A stretch of 11,316 nucleotides of DNA. Origin: Gallionellaceae bacterium. GTDB lineage: Bacteria > Pseudomonadota > Gammaproteobacteria > Burkholderiales > Gallionellaceae. The stretch is from contig CANFCA010000012.1 of assembly GCA_947445045.1 (NCBI GenBank), positions 1-11,316 of the forward strand, given 5' to 3'. Shown here in pieces: positions 1,731 to 11,185 of this stretch. The notes beneath the pieces are model-generated. The model was not told the origin of the DNA, searched no databases, and saw only the letters and a list, made by a program, of their open reading frames with translations. The position numbers and the translations under genes are program-made. How positions within the stretch are numbered: the first letter of the stretch is position 1; the number at the start of each line of letters is the position of its first letter.

Positions 1731-2651
1731 TTACCCTCGTCTTGTTGTACGAATATAAGTGTTGCTACTTTCCATCCACTTCTTAATGCGGTTAGCATCA
1801 CCGATGCGGGTACGTTTTCCGACAGAATCGAGCAGTACAATAATTACTGGGCGCTGATTGATAGTTGCCTCCATCACCAAACAACGTCCGGCCTCATTAA
1901 TGAAACCTGTCTTGCTTACACCGATATCCCACGATGCATTTCTCACTAAAGGATTGGTGTTATTAAAGCGTAACTCGCGCCCGCCCCAACCATCGACAGA
2001 ATGCGTTCCCGTTGTGGTGTATTGATGTATCAAAGAATAATTTCGTGCTGCTGCGACCATCTTCACTAAGTCTTGTGCTGTCGAAACATTATCGCTATTC
2101 AATCCGGTCGGATCAAAAAACTTTGTGCTGGTCATACCCAATGCTTGCGCTTTTGCATTCATCGCAGCCACTGCTGCAACCATGCCACCCGGATAGTTCC
2201 GCGCCAAAGCCGAGGCCGCACGATTTTCTGAAGCCATGAGCGCCAGTTTGAGCATCTCACTCCGTGTAAAAGCCATGCCTATTCGCAATCTTGAGCGAGT
2301 GCCTTTTAGGGTATCCAAATCGGCCACATCTACACTCACTTGTTCTTCTAATGGCGACATCGAATCCAGCACCACCATCGCAGTCATTAGCTTGGTTATG
2401 GAAGCGATCGGTGCAATCATTTCAGCATTTTTGTTATACAGGGGAAGTTGGGTTTGCTCGTCAAAAATCAGCGCGATGTTAGAGGATAGTTGTGGTGACA
2501 AACCATCGCTGGTGTATACAGCTCGAGACACTTTTGAAACTTTATGCGTCTTGTGATGAGCCTTATGATTTGAACTATGAGACTTCGCAAAAGCAACGTG
2601 TGTTGGCAGTGCGTAGCTCAACAACATCAACAATATTATTCTTTTTTTCAT
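1731..2651 (-). CDS. pbpG: D-alanyl-D-alanine endopeptidase (PbpG/PBP7-type, peptidase S11)
   Basis: A periplasmic low-molecular-mass penicillin-binding protein. By family it cleaves D-Ala-meso-DAP cross-links between peptidoglycan strands during wall remodelling. Start chosen at ATG 2651 (306 residues): it gives a signal peptide (MKKRIILLMLLSYALPTHVAFA) and has GAGAGA seven bases upstream. The ATG at 2705 would add 18 residues ahead of the signal peptide and has no ribosome-binding site. All three active-site motifs are present: SITK (84-87, nucleophile Ser84), SEN (141-143) and KTG (247-249). The context SENRAASALARNYPGG is typical of PbpG rather than DacA-type carboxypeptidases, and there is no long C-terminal amphipathic-anchor domain. 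Residues 24-40 after the signal are unusually rich in His, Lys and Ser (five His). The gene lies 60 bases downstream of the Atm1-like exporter gene and ends at an intrinsic terminator. Confidence 0.92.
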   Translation of the reverse strand: MKKRIILLMLLSYALPTHVAFAKSHSSNHKAHHKTHKVSKVSRAVYTSDGLSPQLSSNIALIFDEQTQLPLYNKNAEMIAPIASITKLMTAMVVLDSMSPLEEQVSVDVADLDTLKGTRSRLRIGMAFTRSEMLKLALMASENRAASALARNYPGGMVAAVAAMNAKAQALGMTSTKFFDPTGLNSDNVSTAQDLVKMVAAARNYSLIHQYTTTGTHSVDGWGGRELRFNNTNPLVRNASWDIGVSKTGFINEAGRCLVMEATINQRPVIIVLLDSVGKRTRIGDANRIKKWMESSNTYIRTTRRG

Positions 2652-2711
2652 TTGGGTATCTCTCGCCAGCATGACTGAATGTGAATAAGCATACCTAAAT
2701 TTCAATATAAA

Positions 2712-4508
2712 TCAAGTATTAGTATGCAACTCCTCTTCTTGTTTCTGAAGGTTCCACATTTGTGCATACACAGCGTTGAGACTCAACAATTCGCGATGCG
2801 TTCCGCGCTCGACAATTTTTCCACCATCCATTACCAAGATTTGATCGGCCTCGATCACCGTGGATAGACGATGTGCAATGATTAAGGTAGTGCGATTTTG
2901 TGCGATGGCACGCAGTTCGGCTTGAATTGCTTTTTCGGATTTTGAGTCGAGCGCAGACGTGGCTTCATCAAAAATTAATATCTCAGGATTCTTCAAAATT
3001 GCACGCGCAATCGCAACACGCTGCTTCTCGCCACCCGAGAGTTTTAAGCCGCGCTCTCCCACCATGCTGTCATAACCTTGCGGCAAGGTCTCGATGAAAT
3101 CGTGGATGTGTGCGGTTTGTGCGGCGGCAATTACTTCTTCGCGGGAAGCGTTCGGGCGACCATAGGCGATGTTGTAATAGATCGTGTCGTTAAACAGCAC
3201 CGTGTCTTGCGGCACGATGCCTATCGCAGCACGTAAGCTGCTTTGCGTCACGCCACGTATGTCTTGCCCGTTGATAGAAATGCTGCCTTGCTGCATATCG
3301 TAGAAACGAAACAGCAAACGCGACAACGTCGATTTACCCGCGCCGCTCGACCCGACCACGGCTACCGTGTGTCCTGCCGGAATATCAAAACTCACACCAA
3401 ATAAAATTTGCCGATCAGGCGCGTAAGAAAATTCCACTTGATGAAATTTCACTGATGCTTTTCCAATCACCAATGTCTCGGCATTTGGCGCATCGGCAAT
3501 TTCGCGATGCTCAGTCAACAAACTGAACATTTTTTCCATGTCAGCTAACGAATTGCGGATTTCGCGATACACAAAACCGAGAAAATGGAGCGGCATGTAC
3601 AGTTGAATCATGAACACGTTGACCAGCACCAAATCGCCAACGGTCATCTTGCCCCTCACCACTTCGTCCGCCGCCAACACCATTAACGCGGTGATACCAA
3701 TAGCGATGATGACGCTTTGCACCGAGTTAAGCAGCGCAAGCGAAACTTGATTACGCACCGCCGCCGTTTCCCAATGCTCCATATTGTGATCGTAGCGCTG
3801 CGCTTCATATTTTTCATTGCCGAAATATTTTACGGTTTCGTAATTCAGCAGACTGTCTATCGCACGCGTATTCGCCTTTGAGTCCAGATCGTTCATGGTG
3901 CGACGCACCACCATGCGCCATTCGGTGATGAATAACGTAAACGCGATATAAATCACCAGTGTGACAAACGTAATCACCGCAAACCACACGCTATATTTCT
4001 TCAACAAAATCGCTGCAACTAAAACAATTTCCAACAAAGTGGGCACGATGTTGAACAGCGTAAAGTTCAGCAAGAATCCAATCCCGCGAGTACCGCGTTC
4101 AATGTCCCGCGATACCCCACCAGTTTGCCTATCCAAGTGAAAACGCAAACTCAAACTGTGCAGATGTTCGAACACTTGCAGTGCCACACGACGAATCGCC
4201 CGCTGCGTCACATTCGCAAATACCGCATCGCGCAATTCACCAAACAGCGTACTAAACAAACGCAACAAACCATAGCCAACAATCAACGCAACAGGGATAG
4301 CCAGTGCCGCCTGCGTGCTACTCATCGCATCAATAATTTCTTTAAGCACCAACGGCACAGACACGTTAGCCAGCTTAGACAACACCAACAGACTCATCGC
4401 AATTGTCACTCGCCACTTAAACTCCCCCATGTAAGGAAGTAGCGCGCGTATGGTTTGCCAATCAGAAGAATTTTTAGAAACAGGCTTTGAAGATGTTGAA
4501 GGTCGCAT
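2712..4508 (-). CDS. ABC exporter half-transporter, Atm1/ABCB7 type
   Basis: A 598-residue fused permease-ATPase that should work as a homodimer in the inner membrane. The N-terminal ~330 residues hold six predicted membrane helices (for example around 34-58, 72-92, 150-170, 175-196, 262-282 and 288-312). The segment SLLNYETVKYFGNEKYE (219-235) is a hallmark of the Atm1/ABCB7 family. Members export glutathione-linked sulphur or metal species, supporting Fe-S assembly in mitochondria and heavy-metal detoxification in bacteria. The nucleotide-binding domain is intact: Walker A GSSGAGKST (386-394), Q-loop Gln434, signature LSGGEKQ (490-496), Walker B ILIFDE (510-515, catalytic Glu515) and switch His546. 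The polar N-terminus precedes WQTIRALLPYMGEFKWRV, the usual family opening. No clear Shine-Dalgarno precedes the ATG, but a TATAAT box lies 29-34 bases upstream. The exact substrate cannot be read from sequence. Confidence 0.93.
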   Translation of the reverse strand: MRPSTSSKPVSKNSSDWQTIRALLPYMGEFKWRVTIAMSLLVLSKLANVSVPLVLKEIIDAMSSTQAALAIPVALIVGYGLLRLFSTLFGELRDAVFANVTQRAIRRVALQVFEHLHSLSLRFHLDRQTGGVSRDIERGTRGIGFLLNFTLFNIVPTLLEIVLVAAILLKKYSVWFAVITFVTLVIYIAFTLFITEWRMVVRRTMNDLDSKANTRAIDSLLNYETVKYFGNEKYEAQRYDHNMEHWETAAVRNQVSLALLNSVQSVIIAIGITALMVLAADEVVRGKMTVGDLVLVNVFMIQLYMPLHFLGFVYREIRNSLADMEKMFSLLTEHREIADAPNAETLVIGKASVKFHQVEFSYAPDRQILFGVSFDIPAGHTVAVVGSSGAGKSTLSRLLFRFYDMQQGSISINGQDIRGVTQSSLRAAIGIVPQDTVLFNDTIYYNIAYGRPNASREEVIAAAQTAHIHDFIETLPQGYDSMVGERGLKLSGGEKQRVAIARAILKNPEILIFDEATSALDSKSEKAIQAELRAIAQNRTTLIIAHRLSTVIEADQILVMDGGKIVERGTHRELLSLNAVYAQMWNLQKQEEELHTNT

Positions 4509-4536
4509 GATTGTTACTGATAAATTTCAGGTGATG

Positions 4537-4542
4537 ATTATA
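4537..4542 (-). promoter_or_regulatory. Candidate -10 box for the Atm1-like exporter/pbpG unit
   Basis: The minus strand reads TATAAT here, a perfect sigma-70 -10 hexamer, 28 bases before the exporter start codon. No good -35 hexamer is seen at 16-18 bases upstream, so the promoter may be weak or need an activator. The predicted transcript leader would be about 20 bases. Confidence 0.4.
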
Positions 4543-4609
4543 GCCTGCGCCGTGGCTTAACACCTTGAATGATGACAAACAAATCTTACGTCATTCCATG
4601 CAATAAGTA

Positions 4610-4619
4610 GCAATATTGC
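4610..4619. repeat. 10-bp palindrome, possible regulator half-site pair
   Basis: GCAATATTGC is perfectly self-complementary. The hexamer GCAATA also occurs at 4600-4605, ten bases (about one helical turn) before its copy at 4610-4615, so it would face the same side of the DNA. It is either a transcription-factor site or chance in AT-rich DNA. Confidence 0.3.
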
Positions 4620-4708
4620 CAAAACACCCCTTGCCTTTCATCCTGAAATTCATACCGCTCATGCTCTGTTTTGCATGTTAAAAATCCAATTTACGCCACT
4701 TAGCACTT

Positions 4709-4736
4709 TGACCTTTCCATTTATCGGAAATGGTCA
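4709..4736. promoter_or_regulatory. Long inverted repeat / stem-loop upstream of the barrel operon
   Basis: TGACCTTTCC (4709-4718) pairs with GGAAA-T-GGTCA (4726-4736) through a seven-base loop ATTTATC: ten base pairs with a single bulged T at 4731. No T-tract follows on either strand, so it does not look like a terminator. It overlaps a TTGACC hexamer (4708-4713) and lies just before AT-rich -10 candidates, a natural place for a dimeric repressor or activator to bind. The regulator is unknown. Confidence 0.45.
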
Positions 4737-4847
4737 TGGCATTCAACTTTTAATATGCTAACTTTTAAATCAAATGTCATCAGCACAGGTTATCAATGCG
4801 TAAAGTTTAAGTGGGATGTGGTTTTATCATTTCACACGAGGAATAAC

Positions 4848-5348
4848 ATGAAAAGAATTTTAGCTGCGGTACTTTTAACGACTGTTACATTCGCCCAGTG
4901 CATGGCAGCCCCTCTCTATACAGGCATACAAATCGGCGATAAATCAGTAGGGGCATTAATCGGGTTTCAAATTGATAAACGATATGCAATAGAAGGCCAT
5001 TACTCGCGATCCGACTCCAATATTTCGCATGCAGGTGTAACTGTTGATACAGCAACAACGGGTTTAGGCGTAACGGGAAATGCGAGATTCCCAATGAAGC
5101 TTAATGATGTTCTACCGTATTTCCTGTTTGCAAAAGCTGGCTGGGAACGCACCACAAACAATGAGACTTACACTGTGCCCAACACCTCAGCTCTTCTGAG
5201 CAGTGGCCGTATTACCAGCCACAAAAATCAATTTATTTTCGGTGGCGGTGCTGAATACGAGTTTACAAAAAATATTTCAGGCCGCATGGGTGTGGATTTA
5301 CTTGGTAAAGATAAATCAATCAACTTAGCTGTTTTGTACAAATTTTGA
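4848..5348 (+). CDS. Small outer-membrane beta-barrel protein (OmpA/OmpW-like size)
   Basis: A 166-residue exported protein. The ATG at 4848 is preceded by GAGGA (4838-4842) at good spacing; an in-frame ATG at 4755 would add 31 residues ahead of the signal peptide and lacks such a site. The signal peptide is MKRILAAVLLTTVTFAQCMA with cleavage near residue 20; Cys18 is not in a lipobox. The mature part alternates polar and hydrophobic residues in strand-length runs separated by Gly/Asp/Asn turns (YTGIQIGDKSVGALIGFQI, then YAIEGHYSR, and near the end INLAVLYKF). It ends in Phe, the usual C-terminal signal for Bam-mediated insertion. Its length fits an eight-stranded barrel. It is the first gene of a five-gene run and a paralogue of the next gene. 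Its ligand or role cannot be told from sequence. Confidence 0.85.
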   Translation: MKRILAAVLLTTVTFAQCMAAPLYTGIQIGDKSVGALIGFQIDKRYAIEGHYSRSDSNISHAGVTVDTATTGLGVTGNARFPMKLNDVLPYFLFAKAGWERTTNNETYTVPNTSALLSSGRITSHKNQFIFGGGAEYEFTKNISGRMGVDLLGKDKSINLAVLYKF

Positions 5349-5368
5349 ATGTAGCCACAAGGGAAAAT

Positions 5369-6130
5369 ATGAAACGACTCACTTCACTCTTGCTATCGCT
5401 TGCGCTTACTGTACCAAGTGTATTCGCGGGAACCATTGCAGCTGTCCCCTCACCGAAAATGGATGCGCTGACTCGTGGACGAGCAACCACTGCGGCTCCC
5501 GATACCACTATCGTCGCTGCCCCCGTTGTTCGCAAGTCATCCACTCGCTCTGCACCTACCACTGCTGCCACACCAACTACTCCAGCGCCAACTACTCCAG
5601 CGCCAACTTCCAGCCCCAGCGCAGCACCTATTGAAACAACCGCCGCAACAAACTCCACTGTCGAACCGAAATTTTCGCGGATATATCTAGGCGCACAATT
5701 AGGTGACTCAATTGTTGGCGGATTAGTGGGTTTGCAAATCAGCAAAATGTATTCCGTGGAAGCGCGTTATGACTATGTGGATACGGTCTACATACCCAAT
5801 AGCAATACCAAATCTTCCAATTTCGGCCTCTCAGGTGTCGCACTATTTCCGCTAAAGTTAAGCGAGCTAAAACTGAGCGATATGGAACCGTTTTATGTGT
5901 TTGCTAAAGCGGGATACGAACGCAGCACCGTTAAAACCACTGTTACCGATCCTGGTTTAGGAACACCAGGACTCACAGGATCAAGCAACACTACTACTAT
6001 CGTCAAAGGTCGCTTGTTGATAGGCGGGGGGACGCAATATGACTTCACCAAAAAGTTCAGTGGACGTGTCGGTGTGAATTTTATTGGCAGTGACAATTCG
6101 GTCTATCTCACCGTTCTTTACAAACTTTGA
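5369..6130 (+). CDS. Outer-membrane beta-barrel paralogue with Pro/Thr/Ala-rich N-terminal extension
   Basis: A 253-residue protein starting at ATG 5369 with AAGGGAAA just upstream. A TTG at 5345 is in frame but would overlap the previous stop and has no ribosome-binding site. The signal peptide is MKRLTSLLLSLALTVPSVFA, cleaved near residue 20. Residues 21-103 form a low-complexity linker rich in Ala, Thr, Pro and Ser, with two PTTPA repeats and no predicted structure. From about residue 104 the protein matches the preceding barrel segment by segment: YLGAQLGDSIVGGLVGLQI against YTGIQIGDKSVGALIGFQI, VFAKAGYERST against LFAKAGWERTT, and a C-terminal VYLTVLYKL against INLAVLYKF. It ends in Leu rather than Phe. 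The tandem arrangement, 20 bases apart, points to local duplication followed by gain of the linker. The linker could reach peptidoglycan or a periplasmic partner. Confidence 0.85.
   Translation: MKRLTSLLLSLALTVPSVFAGTIAAVPSPKMDALTRGRATTAAPDTTIVAAPVVRKSSTRSAPTTAATPTTPAPTTPAPTSSPSAAPIETTAATNSTVEPKFSRIYLGAQLGDSIVGGLVGLQISKMYSVEARYDYVDTVYIPNSNTKSSNFGLSGVALFPLKLSELKLSDMEPFYVFAKAGYERSTVKTTVTDPGLGTPGLTGSSNTTTIVKGRLLIGGGTQYDFTKKFSGRVGVNFIGSDNSVYLTVLYKL
5573..5608 (+). repeat. Short tandem repeat coding the Pro/Thr linker
   Basis: CCAACTACTCCAGCG occurs twice head to tail (5573-5587 and 5588-5602) followed by a partial third copy CCAACT. It encodes two PTTPA units in the linker of the second barrel. 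Perfect identity at the DNA level suggests recent slippage, so the copy number may vary between strains. Confidence 0.75.
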
Positions 6131-6153
6131 GCACTTCAACAAATGGGGTTGCC

Positions 6154-7812
6154 ATGATGAACTTCTTGAATAATCGAACGGTTCGAATCTTCACTCAAGC
6201 CGCCCTACTCAGCGCGCTACTCTCAGCGTGTGGCGGCAATGGAACGACTAGCACCACCTCGGATGTTGTTCACCCAACACCAACAGAAGCTTCGCGCATA
6301 CTTTCCCAAGGAACATTTGGACCCACCGCCGCAGAAATCAACAGGCTCAGCAACATGGGTACGTCTGCTTGGTTTAACGATCAATTCTCCAAACCTCAGC
6401 CAACAAAATCACTGCATTTCACTTATATGAACCAAGCTCAAGCAGCATTGCCAGCCGGTCAAAATTTAAGTGAAGCTCAATTCCTTGAGTCGTTTTGGCA
6501 AAAAGCCGTGAAGGGTGATGACCAGCTACGTCAACGCGTGGCATTTGCGCTATCAGAAATTTTTGTTATCTCTTTTCAAAACACTACGCTTGCTAATAAT
6601 CCGCGTGGCGTGGCTGAATATTACGACATGCTGGGCGCATTCGCTTTTGGTAATTTTAGAGACCTATTAGAACAAGTCACTCTGCACCCCATGATGGGTA
6701 ACTATCTCAGCTCATTGCGAAATCAAAAAACAGTTGGCGCTCGACTGCCTGATGAAAATTATGCGCGTGAAGTGATGCAATTATTCACTATTGGACTCAG
6801 GGAGCTCAACGAAGATGGCACTGAAACTAACCCACCTAAAGCCACTTACACGAGCGACGATATCAAAGGATTGGCGAAGGTTTTTACGGGGTGGAGTTGG
6901 TACGGAACAGATAAAACAGATACACGATTTTTTGGCGGCACCCCTGACCCCAACCGCGATTGGAGGCCGATGCAAAACTATCCAAATTTCCATGAAACCT
7001 TACCAAAAACCTTTCTCGGCGTAACAATCCCAGCCAACACTTCTGGTGAAGAAAGCCTAAAAATCGCATTGGATACCCTATTCAATCATCCAAACGTCGG
7101 TCCTTTCATTGCTCGTCGACTCATACAACGCTTGGTCACCAGCAACCCTAGCCCCACTTATATTGGCAACGTTGCGAAAGTGTTCGCCAACAATGGACAA
7201 GGCGTGCGTGGTGATATGAAAGCGGTGATTAAAGCTGTGTTGTTAGACCCTGAAGCGATGACATTTTCAACTGCTCCTAGCGCGGGAAAATTACGTGAAC
7301 CTGTGGTTCGCCTCGCCAATTGGATGCGTGCATTTAACCCCCAATCAACCCTTGCCACTGGGCAATTTCCCGTTGGCAACCTTGACGATCCCTTGCGGGA
7401 AATCGGTCAAACGCCGATGAGTTCGCCTACGGTATTTAATTTTTTCCGTCCTGACTATATCCCTCCCAACTCCAGTATCGCCGCTGCTAACTTGGTTGCC
7501 CCTGAAATGCAGATCACTGAAGAAACTTCTGTAGTGGGTTATTTGAACTATATGCACAATGCCATTCCTAGAGGGATTGGAACTTCGAATGTCATTCAAC
7601 CTGATTACGCTACCGAACTGGCGTTGGCTAGCACGCCAGATCTTTTGGTTGATCGCATCAATCTATTACTAATGCAAAATAATATGTCGGCAGGATTACG
7701 TACACAAATCCTCGCGACCATTAACTCCAACCCGAACAACACCGCCCTAAATAAAGTTTACTTGGCGATATTCCTCACCATGGCATCGCCCGAATATCTC
7801 GTGCAGAAATAA
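6154..7812 (+). CDS. DUF1800-family lipoprotein
   Basis: About 552 residues from ATG 6154 (ATG 6157 is equally possible; GGGG at 6145-6148 serves both). A lipoprotein signal ends in the lipobox LSAC, with lipidation expected on Cys26 and GGN after it, so the protein should be membrane-anchored and face the periplasm or surface. The remainder is the DUF1800 domain, with familiar landmarks: EASRILSQGTFGPT near residue 45, ENYAREVMQLFTIGL (201-215), GLAKVFTGWSW (239-249), FIARRLIQRLV (318-328), KLREPVVRLANWMRAF (379-394) and SPTVFNFFRPDYIPP (424-438). The length fits the family. The molecular function of DUF1800 is not established to my knowledge. It is commonly encoded next to a DUF1501 gene, as here (16-base gap), which implies that the two act together. 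Confidence 0.93.
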   Translation: MMNFLNNRTVRIFTQAALLSALLSACGGNGTTSTTSDVVHPTPTEASRILSQGTFGPTAAEINRLSNMGTSAWFNDQFSKPQPTKSLHFTYMNQAQAALPAGQNLSEAQFLESFWQKAVKGDDQLRQRVAFALSEIFVISFQNTTLANNPRGVAEYYDMLGAFAFGNFRDLLEQVTLHPMMGNYLSSLRNQKTVGARLPDENYAREVMQLFTIGLRELNEDGTETNPPKATYTSDDIKGLAKVFTGWSWYGTDKTDTRFFGGTPDPNRDWRPMQNYPNFHETLPKTFLGVTIPANTSGEESLKIALDTLFNHPNVGPFIARRLIQRLVTSNPSPTYIGNVAKVFANNGQGVRGDMKAVIKAVLLDPEAMTFSTAPSAGKLREPVVRLANWMRAFNPQSTLATGQFPVGNLDDPLREIGQTPMSSPTVFNFFRPDYIPPNSSIAAANLVAPEMQITEETSVVGYLNYMHNAIPRGIGTSNVIQPDYATELALASTPDLLVDRINLLLMQNNMSAGLRTQILATINSNPNNTALNKVYLAIFLTMASPEYLVQK

Positions 7813-7828
7813 TGTAAGGACAGACATC

Positions 7829-9295
7829 ATGACTAACCCTATCAATATGTCGCGACGTGAATTCTTACGCAGAGGCACACTGCTGTCTGTAGCAGGCTCT
7901 TTCAGCGCGCCCTTTGCGCTCAATTTATTTTCCATGAACGTGGCGGCGGCTTCAACTTTCACCTCAGATTACAAAGCGATTGTGTGCCTCTACTTTGGCG
8001 GGGGAAACGATAGCGCCAATATGGTGTTAGCGACGGACACCTCATCATGGGCCGGCTATCAGTCTGCACGCAGCATCGGCGGGGCAGCATCTATTGCTTT
8101 ACCCATTGCGAGGGTACTGCCCATCGTACCGAACACTCCTCATATAGATGCCGTAGGAACGCGCGCCTTCGCCTTGCACCCCAATCTCACCCAACTTAAA
8201 ACCTTGTTTGATGCGGGACGTGCCGCCGTAATTGCTAACGTAGGAACTTTGATTGAGCCGATTGCAGACAAAGTTGCATATCGCAGTAGTGCGATCCAAA
8301 AACCGGCCAACCTATTTTCACATAGCGATCAAACCACGCAATGGCATTCGGCTGATCCTAGCAAGCCGATTTATGGCTGGGGCGGACGCATGGGGGATGT
8401 GTTAAAGACCAGCAACGGCAAACAAAATTTCACCAACATGTCTTCGTCTGGGAATAGCGTTTTTTTAGCGGGCGAAACGATCAATCAGTATCAGATCAAC
8501 TCCAATGGATCTGCCGTACCCATTGATGGCATGGCGAACTTATTTGGTATCAACACAGCCAATAACCCGCTGAAATCCATCATCACTAACACTGGCGCGA
8601 GCAATCTTCTGGAAAAAGAACATGCAGCAATCGTAGAGCGATCCATTGCAGCACAAACTGATTTGAATAACGTCATGCTGGCAACCGCCACCTCTGTTAC
8701 CGCACCGACTCAATATACCAACCCAAACAACAATCAACCCGGCAACAATTCACTGGCGACACAATTGCGAACGGTGGCACGCATCATCGCTGGCCAAACC
8801 ACCTTGGGCGCACACCGACAAGTATTCTTCGTCAGCATCGGTGGATTCGACACGCATGACAATCAACTCACGGGACAAGCTGATTTGATGGCTCGAATCG
8901 ACCACGCTGTGTCCTATTTTTATAACACGCTAGCAACACTGTCTGGCGTAGGCGATATGAGCAGCAACGTAACGCTATTCACTGCTTCTGATTTTGGTCG
9001 AACTTTTACCAGCAATGGCGATGGTACCGATCACGGTTGGGGCGCACATCATTTTGTCGTAGGTGGCGCAGTGAAAGGCAAAGATATTTATGGCAACTTC
9101 CCGCAAACCGCTGTTTCTGGCGGCAGCATCGACAACCCACTGGATGTCGGATCAGGCAGCCTGATCCCCACCATCTCCGTCGATCAATATGCAGGCACAT
9201 TGGCGAAATGGTTTGGATTAAGCCCAGCGGAAATTGCATCCGTATTCCCTAACCTTAATAAATTTCCAATTCAGGATTTAGGCTTCATGGTTTAA
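7829..9295 (+). CDS. DUF1501-family protein, Tat-exported
   Basis: A 488-residue protein starting at ATG 7829, eight bases after TAAGGA. The N-terminus carries a twin-arginine signal (SRREFLRR, 8-15), a hydrophobic stretch and a small-residue cleavage region near VAAAS (38-42), so it should be exported folded, possibly with a bound metal. The mature domain shows DUF1501 landmarks: LYFGGGNDSANM (54-65), FSHSDQTTQWHS (163-174), VSIGGFDTHDNQ (335-346), TASDFGRT (385-392) and DHGWGAHHFVVGG (401-413). The Asp/His-rich motifs resemble metal ligands of the alkaline phosphatase/sulphatase superfamily, to which DUF1501 is related. Hydrolase activity is plausible but not shown by the sequence alone. 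It is the partner of the DUF1800 gene directly upstream and precedes the cytochrome-like lipoprotein by 17 bases. Confidence 0.93.
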   Translation: MTNPINMSRREFLRRGTLLSVAGSFSAPFALNLFSMNVAAASTFTSDYKAIVCLYFGGGNDSANMVLATDTSSWAGYQSARSIGGAASIALPIARVLPIVPNTPHIDAVGTRAFALHPNLTQLKTLFDAGRAAVIANVGTLIEPIADKVAYRSSAIQKPANLFSHSDQTTQWHSADPSKPIYGWGGRMGDVLKTSNGKQNFTNMSSSGNSVFLAGETINQYQINSNGSAVPIDGMANLFGINTANNPLKSIITNTGASNLLEKEHAAIVERSIAAQTDLNNVMLATATSVTAPTQYTNPNNNQPGNNSLATQLRTVARIIAGQTTLGAHRQVFFVSIGGFDTHDNQLTGQADLMARIDHAVSYFYNTLATLSGVGDMSSNVTLFTASDFGRTFTSNGDGTDHGWGAHHFVVGGAVKGKDIYGNFPQTAVSGGSIDNPLDVGSGSLIPTISVDQYAGTLAKWFGLSPAEIASVFPNLNKFPIQDLGFMV

Positions 9296-9312
9296 ACGAA
9301 GGAAAATATCGC

Positions 9313-10008
9313 ATGCTAAATGATCTGATTAAATCCCTGAGCCTTACCCTGCTGTCTTTAACACTTGTCTCCTGCGGTGGTGGAGGTAATTCAAGCTCAT
9401 CCAGCAACACACCCCAACCTGCAACAGTTAAATCTATCGTTCCGTACGGGGTGATGGCACCAGTAAGCAATCAACCATTATCAATAGTTGGGACTAACTT
9501 TGTGAGCGGTATGTCCATCAGTGTTGATGGCATCAACTATCCAGCAGTAGTCATCTCGCCGACGGTCATCAACGCCAATGTGGCTATTAATACTGTGCCA
9601 GCCAATAACATCGCCAACGTCAGCGTCAAATCTTCATCAGGCACAACACTCGGCACGGTTACTTTAGGCGTGGCTAGCGCAGACAGAACACTTGCCATAG
9701 ATGTGTGGCCAATCTTTGATGCCAACTGCCGATCCTGTCACACAGGAAACGCCAATGGCAATCTGGATCTGAGCAGCCCTGCTGCTATCGCTGCAAACCT
9801 TACTACGGGGTTAATCGGCATTCCAAGTTCTGGCTGCTCACCAAATTTTCGTGTGGTAGTGGGTGATCCACGCCCTACTAGCAGTGTACTCATAGACAAA
9901 ATTAAATCAGCTATCCCTTGCAGTGGCAACCCTATGCCTCCAACGGGTAGCCTAACTCCAACCGAAGTTCAAACGATAGTCGATTGGGTGGCCGGTGGTG
10001 CGAATTAA
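9313..10008 (+). CDS. Lipoprotein with IPT/TIG-like domain and mono-haem cytochrome c motif
   Basis: A 231-residue protein from ATG 9313, with AAGGA at 9299-9303. The lipoprotein signal ends LVSC (lipidated Cys21), followed by a Gly/Ser spacer. Residues 38-120 look like an IPT/TIG immunoglobulin-like domain (VKSIVPYGVMAPVSNQPLSI, then VGTNFVSGMSISVDG). Residues 126-231 resemble the small cytochrome c domains found beside DUF1501/DUF1800 proteins in planctomycetes. They include WPIFDANCRSCHTG with a CXXCH haem site at 139-143, NGNLDLSS, and NPMPPTGSLTPTEVQTIVDWV, where Met208 is the likely sixth ligand. Two further cysteines (175 and 203) could form a disulphide. Haem would be attached in the periplasm by the cytochrome c maturation machinery. 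The protein is probably an electron-transfer or redox-sensing member of the five-gene system. Confidence 0.88.
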   Translation: MLNDLIKSLSLTLLSLTLVSCGGGGNSSSSSNTPQPATVKSIVPYGVMAPVSNQPLSIVGTNFVSGMSISVDGINYPAVVISPTVINANVAINTVPANNIANVSVKSSSGTTLGTVTLGVASADRTLAIDVWPIFDANCRSCHTGNANGNLDLSSPAAIAANLTTGLIGIPSSGCSPNFRVVVGDPRPTSSVLIDKIKSAIPCSGNPMPPTGSLTPTEVQTIVDWVAGGAN

Positions 10009-10024
10009 ACTCAGGGAGTGTAAT

Positions 10025-11185
10025 TCAATGCCACTTGGAGAAGCCCATGATACCTACCAGAAAGCGAATCACAGCATAGCTAATACGTGACAAAAAAGGG
10101 GCGAAATAATCACCTTTAACAGACTCAATTCGTTTTACATCCTTCGCAATAATCTCAAGCAAACTCGAACACAATGCTTGTGCAAAGCTCGCATCGTTCA
10201 CCACTAAATTGGCTTCACGTGACAGCAATAAACTAAACGGATCAATATTCGAAGAACCTACCGTTGACCATTTCCCATCAATAACAGCCACTTTCGCGTG
10301 TAAATAGCTTGCTTGATATTCATAAATCTCAACACCCACGGCGAGCAACTCTTCGTACAACGAACGAGTCGCATAATGTTGAATGACATACTCTACACGA
10401 CCCTGTAACAATAGTACGACACGTACCCCTCGATGTGCTGCTTGCTTTAACGCACGACGAAAAATTCGACCTGGTAAAAAATAAGCATTAGCAATAATAA
10501 CTTCACTTTGTGCGTTGGCTATCGCAGTTAAATAGGCACGCTCAATATCACGACGATGGCGTACATTGTCACGCACCACAAAAGTGAGGGAGGGCGAAGC
10601 AACGTCATGCGGCCTATCAACGACACTGGCAAAAAATTGTTTCCCCCTTCTGCGGAAATTTGCCCATGACACGACACCCCATAGATGCCGCATGGTCTGA
10701 TGAATTTCGCCAACCACGGTACCTTGTACCCGCACCGCATAATCCAGTTGCGGCATCGTTAATTCAGTATGTGCTGGCACGTCATTCATGATGTTGATGC
10801 CACCGATATAAGCCACCCCGCCATCGATTACAACTAACTTGCGATGCAAGCGACGTAAACGATAGCGACGTATGCGAAATTGTGAACGCTCGCGGCGAAA
10901 CCACTGCATTTCAATCCCTGCCATACGCCATTCGTTCAGCCAATCTGGCGACAATTCAGCCGAGCCAAATCCATCTAACAGCACCCTCACCACCAAACCT
11001 CGCGTGGCCGCATGTTGCAATGCCTCAGCAACCAACCGGCCAATTACATCATCAACGAAGCGGTAGGTTTCCAGATAAATCGAATGCTGTGCTGCGGCAA
11101 TATCTTTGCAAAGCTGGGGGAAAAATTCCGCCCCGTTTTGCATTAACGTGAGTTGATTCTCCGCGACATGGTGAATGCTACTCAT
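10025..11185 (-). CDS. clsB: Cardiolipin synthase B-type phospholipase D family enzyme
   Basis: A 386-residue protein with two phospholipase D (HKD) motifs: H114, K116, D121 (LHRKLVVIDGGVAYIGGINI) and H296, K298, D303 (LHAKVAVIDGKWSTVGSSNID). There is no N-terminal double membrane helix of the ClsA type, and the length and motif spacing fit ClsB (YbhO). Bacterial Cls enzymes make cardiolipin at the inner membrane; E. coli ClsB also has phosphatidylglycerol synthesis activity. The C-terminus is hydrophobic (YAVIRFLVGIMGFSKWH) and may be a membrane contact. A basic patch, RRERSQFRIRRYRLRRLHRK (97-116), precedes the first motif. The start codon overlaps the end of the EEP-family gene upstream, which favours translational coupling. 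Its stop lies 16 bases from the stop of the convergent cytochrome-like gene, with no visible terminator between them. Confidence 0.92.
   Translation of the reverse strand: MSSIHHVAENQLTLMQNGAEFFPQLCKDIAAAQHSIYLETYRFVDDVIGRLVAEALQHAATRGLVVRVLLDGFGSAELSPDWLNEWRMAGIEMQWFRRERSQFRIRRYRLRRLHRKLVVIDGGVAYIGGINIMNDVPAHTELTMPQLDYAVRVQGTVVGEIHQTMRHLWGVVSWANFRRRGKQFFASVVDRPHDVASPSLTFVVRDNVRHRRDIERAYLTAIANAQSEVIIANAYFLPGRIFRRALKQAAHRGVRVVLLLQGRVEYVIQHYATRSLYEELLAVGVEIYEYQASYLHAKVAVIDGKWSTVGSSNIDPFSLLLSREANLVVNDASFAQALCSSLLEIIAKDVKRIESVKGDYFAPFLSRISYAVIRFLVGIMGFSKWH

Follow-up and report, generated by a model that had tools for sequence, protein, structure and literature searches.

The protein families DUF1501 and DUF1800 (COG4102 and COG5267) form a known and widespread gene pair, yet a literature search made mostly without subscription journals found no assigned function for either family or for the pair. 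In Dickeya, Pectobacterium, Brenneria and Agrobacterium vitis a chitin synthase accompanies the pair (PMC5122149), and in SAR202 the abundances of COG4102 and COG5267 are correlated (PMC6946804). In planctomycetes and verrucomicrobia a second setting is provided by the PSCyt1-PSCyt2-PSD1 proteins (PSD1 being DUF1553): Rhodopirellula baltica has 41 PSD1 (PMC2754498), PSCyt2 and PSCyt3 genes adjoin families of unknown genes (PMC5615132), and genomic clusters of DUF1501 in bacteria of the Planctomycetes–Verrucomicrobia–Chlamydiae (PVC) group are cited in PMC4452313. The last two sources already foreshadow DUF1501 beside PSCyt-type genes. A third comparison is offered by the outer-membrane electron conduits of Gallionellaceae, namely Cyc2, MtoAB, PCC3 and Uet (PMC10734462). 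Here we analyse a stretch of 11,316 nucleotides (the window; contig CANFCA010000012.1 of assembly GCA_947445045.1) from a draft Gallionellaceae genome of 1.54 Mb that is ~61% complete. In the window the pair lies within a cassette of five envelope genes, and this cassette is confirmed to be a real unit, local to one family and built on the widespread pair.

According to the open reading frame (ORF) map, the five genes occupy positions 4848-10008 of the + strand and are separated by 20, 23, 16 and 17 base pairs (bp), which bears out the gaps of 16-23 bp given in the original prediction.

4848-5348, + strand: barrel 1 (OMP1), 166 amino acids (aa); small barrel of OmpA-like type with a Sec signal and a C-terminal Phe; PF13505.
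5369-6130, + strand: barrel 2 (OMP2), 253 aa; Sec signal, then a Pro/Thr/Ala-rich spacer of ~80 residues, then a paralog of barrel 1.
6154-7812, + strand: DUF1800 lipoprotein; start codon ATG at 6154 or 6157; lipobox Cys codon 6229-6231; PF08811.
7829-9295, + strand: DUF1501 protein with a signal of the twin-arginine translocation (Tat) type; RR codons 7853-7858; PF07394.
9313-10008, + strand: cytochrome lipoprotein; Cys codon 9373-9375; choice-of-anchor Z/TIG-like domain plus mono-heme cytochrome c domain; heme motif CRSCH at codons 9727-9741 and likely axial Met codon 9934-9936.

Recognition of lipoproteins, Tat substrates and barrels follows general rules, and the export signals were judged by eye: Sec on both barrels, lipoboxes LLSAC and LVSC, and SRREFLRR as the Tat motif, so that the three kinds of signal originally proposed are all present. 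Pfam matches lie above the curated cut-offs for DUF1800 (326.8 bits) and DUF1501 (119.2 bits); OMP_b-brl (PF13505) reaches 31.9 bits on barrel 1 (cut-off 28.7) and 25.6 bits, below the cut-off, on barrel 2. The two barrels are paralogs, with 42% identity across 153 columns. The spacer of barrel 2 (window 5432-5680) seems to be variable, the lengths of orthologs in ORF lists ranging from 175 to 253 aa. The proposal of a TIG-cytochrome lipoprotein also stands: the 'TIG' part is the choice-of-anchor Z repeating domain (NF058597, residues 37-118; 31.9 bits, NCBIfam cut-off 30), and Cytochrome_CBB3 (PF13442) matches the heme part at 29.0 bits (cut-off 27).

A scan of species genomes for relatives of the DUF1800 protein gave 78 loci, formed by the best 80 of 232 relatives. 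In 77 of the 78, DUF1800 is followed directly by a same-strand DUF1501 gene, and the lone locus without it (L062) ends at a contig edge. Barrels homologous to those of the window are present in six loci (L032, L033, L034, L061, L067 and L081) and a homologous cytochrome in three (L032, L061 and L083, the last of which begins within DUF1800 and has its upstream side outside the stretch); the count detects homologs only, and unrelated barrels would escape it. Beyond the window clade, neither homologous barrels nor a homologous cytochrome were found beside the pair in the 78 loci. Neighbor clusters around the pair yielded no further partner recognised across lineages, many of them being opposite-strand shadow ORFs over the pair, while others look like host synteny. 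The DUF1800 protein is 83% and 75% identical in two genomes of the same genus, and among the best 80 of 232 relatives the closest named one (83%) is in Gallionella sp. P-RSF-IL-16. The host is Gallionella-like.

The family itself was surveyed in 158 Gallionellaceae genomes, many of them incomplete. Full-length DUF1800 (E below 1e-80) is found in 12, and in eight of these, the window included, the order is barrel 1, barrel 2, DUF1800, DUF1501 (the six barrel-bearing loci named above, the window and G035). Among the other four, G448, G102 and G107 break off at a contig end and G077 carries a remote type of DUF1800 in a different gene setting: the order is thus seen in 8/8 judgeable loci of the window clade, and the pair with twin barrels is, as first supposed, a linked set. 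All five genes occur together in four of the eight barrel-bearing genomes; the other four lack the cytochrome. Full-length relatives of the cytochrome are restricted to four of the 158 genomes (window, G072, G035 and G098), and another 37 have weak partial matches only. Because the first four genes recur in order in eight genomes and all five in four, the set is more than a product of chance; because the pair is common elsewhere without homologous barrels or cytochrome, and half of the barrel-bearing genomes have no cytochrome, DUF1800-DUF1501 is the core, the barrels are an addition at the level of the family and the cytochrome is optional. The original prediction was to fail if relatives carried the pair unlinked from barrels or cytochrome; loci of that kind are seen, and the prediction is weakened in part by its own test.

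Related loci show further features. The locus of G468 has no cytochrome, and there DUF1501 is followed by a DUF481 gene (L279:7982-8812; 86.6 bits). L289 (G113:C1:108833-109015) holds a short DUF1800-like stretch (E 4.3e-6) with one in-frame TGA, perhaps the remnant of a lost pair. Convergent to the cytochrome end of the operon in G035 are an 11-heme cytochrome gene and a gene of 722 aa (L276:686-1735 and 1848-4016), the latter with weak TPR matches only; the locus recalls the undecaheme Uet complex reported for Gallionella in PMC10734462, as a resemblance only. Genome G060 (64% complete), in which the DUF1800 search gave no match, has at L286 a barrel-1 relative with two in-frame stops (1168-1581, + strand) adjoining a similar 737-aa gene (1752-3965, - strand) and a multiheme cytochrome gene (3999-4499, - strand) that is truncated at the edge of the stretch.

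The history of the cassette was followed in trees of DUF1501 and of the barrels. In the DUF1501 tree (16 proteins) the nine clade members group together (support 100/99). Cytochrome carriers form two groups, window with G072 (97/98) and G035 with G098 and L083 (99/96), and all four cytochrome-less loci fall into a single group (98/98), which branches beside window and G072 (87/90). Such a distribution may be explained by one loss or by two gains: we prefer one loss, because homologous cytochromes occupy the same position. Barrel 1 forms one clade of eight (97/96) and barrel 2 another (100/99); the duplication therefore predates the split, and the barrels stem from a single old duplication kept in all eight genomes. 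DUF1501 (where L083 joins next to G098) and both sets of barrels all recover G035 with G098, and likewise the group of four cytochrome-less loci; window with G072 is recovered for DUF1501 and barrel 2, not for barrel 1. Deeper branching order, with moderate support, differs between the DUF1501 and barrel trees. Comparison of the window with its nearest relative (L032) shows purifying selection on four genes, the ratios of nonsynonymous to synonymous divergence (dN/dS) being 0.095 for barrel 2, 0.085 for DUF1800, 0.064 for DUF1501 and 0.219 for the cytochrome; barrel 1 has a dN of 0.252 and a saturated dS.

Sequence sets for the family comparisons comprised 51 (A1) and 60 (A2) members, from 67 and 74 candidates plus the window, and 52 of 73 matches plus the window (A4), with fragments, near-copies and two unrelated matches excluded. 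A profile of 29 DUF1501 proteins, drawn from 28 stretches of Verrucomicrobia-group genomes, aligned to 29 sulfatases (PF00884) with an hhalign score of 56.2 (probability 88), the maximum of 60 column-shuffled nulls being 17.2; a mixed set of 80 DUF1501 proteins scored 43.1, a value taken without null comparison. The alignment places the C-terminal SEFGR/SDFGR region of DUF1501 on the SDHG region of sulfatases, in the register of the metal site, while the N-terminal half is unaligned. At the level of the family, profile comparison thus shows DUF1501 to be a probable relative of the sulfatase/alkaline-phosphatase superfamily, which also includes transferases that decorate envelope polymers. No meaningful relative of either DUF1501 or DUF1800 was found among PDB sequences. 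Residues invariant over the 80 DUF1501 proteins include H165, D341, H343, R391 and H402; conservation is 99% for D401 and 97% for the twin Arg. Invariant His and Asp together with a twin Arg are the pattern expected of a Tat-exported metalloenzyme, and metal binding may be inferred. Of the two activities first suggested for DUF1501, metal-dependent hydrolase or oxidoreductase, the former gains from the superfamily match and the invariant residues; nothing was found for the latter.

A further comparison concerns DUF1800 and PSD1. In the Verrucomicrobia-group genome G199 the Pfam DUF1800 model matches twice inside PSD1 places (PSD1 near E 1e-77). On re-scanning, PSD1 covers 674-910 of L201 (256 bits), where DUF1800 matches at 671-785 (27.2 bits, above the cut-off of 26.1); in L202 the two models match at 674-915 (PSD1) and 721-941 (DUF1800; 19.0 bits, E 9e-4). 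A short DUF1800 subfamily (26 sequences) aligned to the PSD1 part of 20 PSCyt-PSD1 proteins with an hhalign score of 57.4 over positions 258-487, against a mean of 16.9 and a maximum of 25.4 in 100 shuffles. Together with one weak match (E 2e-4), the Pfam model and hhalign show, at family level, that part of the DUF1800 family is in all probability related to PSD1 through its C-terminal half; the homology would reach the DUF1800 protein of the window only through family membership. PSCyt2 and PSD1 were absent from the 11 families matched at E up to 10 by 60 DUF1800 proteins, and hmmsearch with DUF1800 profiles found no match in the first PVC stretches. Kinship of DUF1800 with PSCyt2 is not claimed, the hhalign matches being weak (27.7 or less). 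In the literature searched, with most subscription journals outside its reach, we found neither a sequence link between DUF1800 and PSD1 nor a paper uniting DUF1800 with DUF1553/DUF1549. The family has other forms: L203 (G199:C94) contains two tandem pairs in which DUF1501 accompanies a very long DUF1800 protein, one of 2079 aa and the other an open frame truncated after 2519 aa by the limit of the stretch, and in the alga Emiliania huxleyi DUF1800 is represented by 10 background genes and among genes raised by calcium (PMC7563939).

The cytochrome has a single CXXCH and is thus mono-heme, not multiheme. Its lipobox Cys and CXXCH are invariant in 53 aligned sequences of the family (the window's included), as is C175; C203 and M208, the latter a likely axial Met, are conserved in 90% or more. 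PSCyt1 scores 13.2 bits on the protein (Pfam cut-off 22). In profile comparison the heme domain scored 88.6 against PSCyt1 and 88.7 against small cytochromes of other Gallionellaceae, which themselves scored 111.8 against PSCyt1; the Gallionellaceae set consisted of eight proteins from six loci, two of another cytochrome type, and the scores are without shuffles. It belongs to the same broad heme class as PSCyt1 and is equally close to other Gallionellaceae cytochromes, so that a planctomycete origin is not supported.

How, then, does the cassette relate to the systems described? PSD1 matches number 48 (G199), 36 and 8 in three genomes of verrucomicrobial/planctomycete type. Among 20 PSCyt1-PSCyt2-PSD1 stretches, picked from ~92 places and including two proteins that are 98% identical, 13 show a neighboring DUF1501 relative with the window-clade profile, 11 of them with E no higher than 1e-3. 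The DUF1501 neighbor and a mono-heme domain of the same broad class are shared with the window; the tie to PSD1 is strong for the short DUF1800 subfamily and absent for the window clade's own profile. In the window, however, the parts are unfused, DUF1800 has no CXXCH and no PSCyt2 or PSD1 match, and the cytochrome falls below the PSCyt1 cut-off. The likeness to the chitin-synthase-linked pair of PMC5122149 lies in both families exceeding their cut-offs, in adjacency on one strand and in the Tat signal of DUF1501, whereas the twin barrels upstream and the cytochrome lipoprotein downstream set the window apart, among whose ORFs no chitin synthase was found with Pfam or NCBIfam. With Cyc2, MtoAB, PCC3 and Uet the cassette has in common an outer-membrane barrel and a c-type cytochrome, Cyc2 being also mono-heme; but in Cyc2's case the difference is that the window cytochrome is an ORF separate from the barrels, whose domains are of the OMP_b-brl/OmpA type (~145 residues), and in the case of MtoAB, PCC3 and Uet that it is not multiheme, that the barrels are small and that the core is DUF1800-DUF1501.

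The explanation we favor, at a confidence somewhat short of even, is that of an ancestral operon of Gallionellaceae encoding a DUF1501-DUF1800 metallo-hydrolase that is kept in the envelope, anchored by barrels, acts on a polymer and has an optional cytochrome accessory. DUF1501 would fold in the cytoplasm with its metal or metals and leave by the Tat route; its substrate, as a metallo-hydrolase (or transferase), would be a polymer at the surface or outside the cell that bears sulfate or phosphate esters; the lipid-anchored DUF1800 would be its standing partner; the two small barrels would hold the pair at the outer membrane or present it there; and the cytochrome lipoprotein, in some members only, may be an accessory module coupling it to periplasmic redox. 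Location, complex, metal, substrate and electron transfer are all predictions from sequence. Barrels of OmpA-like size (~145 residues) are not expected to be pores for solutes or cytochromes, so that of the two roles first offered for them, platform or pore, the platform fits better. A wider reading, somewhat less likely than not, is that DUF1800-DUF1501 may be the unfused form of an ancient envelope system whose fused form is PSCyt1-PSCyt2-PSD1 with DUF1501. Several results weigh against these proposals. The window-clade DUF1501 profile matches sulfatases weakly (21.8, null maximum 18.9), PF01676 gave no signal with any of three DUF1501 profiles, and [CS]xPxR, the formylglycine motif of type I sulfatases, is absent from the DUF1501 protein of the window, which for that reason is not filed as a sulfatase proper. 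On the PSD1 side, a 147-sequence DUF1800 profile scored 30.4 (shuffle maximum 31.8) and the window-clade profile 26.8 (27.9), and among the other PSCyt-PSD1 proteins DUF1800 matched in 1/16 (E 0.021). The unit is also rare, with 8 of 158 Gallionellaceae genomes, some incomplete.

A different view of the same genes reads DUF1501/DUF1800 as an oxidoreductase with the cytochrome as its electron partner, the barrels forming an outer-membrane conduit, perhaps in iron oxidation. The host family consists of iron oxidisers, the cytochrome stands directly after DUF1501 in 4/4 genomes with a full-length relative, an 11-heme cytochrome gene converges on the operon in G035, and the Rhodopirellula paper ascribes a likely redox role to PSD1 and PSCyt2 (PMC2754498), a point that also tells against a hydrolase. 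However, four of the eight barrel-bearing genomes have no cytochrome, which consequently cannot be an essential electron partner there; cytochrome and barrels are separate genes, unlike Cyc2, and the barrels are small; and the unit occurs in 8/158 Gallionellaceae, as against cyc2 or mtoA in 89% of the iron-oxidiser genomes of PMC10734462. We regard a redox complex as improbable, and a conduit like MtoAB, PCC3 or Cyc2 was rejected as best explanation, given that the cytochrome is optional, unfused and carries one heme and that the barrels are small.

A further suggestion is that the pair serves in the production, modification or attachment of a secreted polysaccharide (a stalk or capsule, for example), with barrels and lipoproteins as tethers. 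The pairing with chitin synthase and the envelope-decorating transferases of the sulfatase superfamily speak for it, and the chitin-synthase tie and the SAR202 correlation would agree, short of proof, with a polymer-related role. On the other hand, no glycosyltransferase gene exceeds its cut-off in the window, the pair is rare within Gallionellaceae, and the genes upstream of the Undibacterium-type loci L035 and L044 look, from reading the proteins, like unrelated housekeeping genes: exopolymer assembly is unlikely, if deserving of serious attention. That the five are separate envelope genes, adjacent without joint function, seems more doubtful than any of these. The pair does stand without homologous barrels or cytochrome in the other lineages seen, and barrel-1 relatives occur apart from it in G076, G450, G104 and G109; but the same order in eight genomes, a barrel duplication kept in all eight, short gaps and purifying selection speak against it.

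The surroundings of the cassette are as follows.

2712-4508, - strand: MsbA-like ABC-transporter gene, divergent flank; best NCBIfam models below their own cut-offs.
4509-4847, no strand: intergenic region (ORF map) between the ABC-transporter gene and the operon.
10025-11185, - strand: cardiolipin synthase gene clsB, convergent flank; 356.8 bits (NCBIfam cut-off 281).

If the five genes form one transcript, the promoter would sit in 4509-4847; a consensus promoter scan of 4400-10200 was uninformative (seven sites, 8.9 in shuffles). Farther upstream (54-1124), an AtcC-like gene (NF047890, 35.2 bits, cut-off 370) adjoins a short DnaJ-domain gene (NF050028, 71.9 bits, cut-off 150), a pair reminiscent of a cold-adaptation set.

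The link of DUF1501 to sulfatases supplies named candidate metal residues and, joined to that of DUF1800 with PSD1, would merge the proteobacterial pairs and the PSCyt genes – dozens of which can occur in a single verrucomicrobial or planctomycete genome – into one testable question. In the unfused-form reading, a sulfatase-like metalloenzyme and a PSD1-type partner would be accompanied by a mono-heme domain that is either fused (PVC) or encoded as a separate lipoprotein gene (Gallionellaceae); if true, this would imply that redox coupling of a hydrolase has been chosen repeatedly. The Gallionellaceae operon may thus represent a compact natural version of the system, in which the heme part can be removed and the core left untouched.

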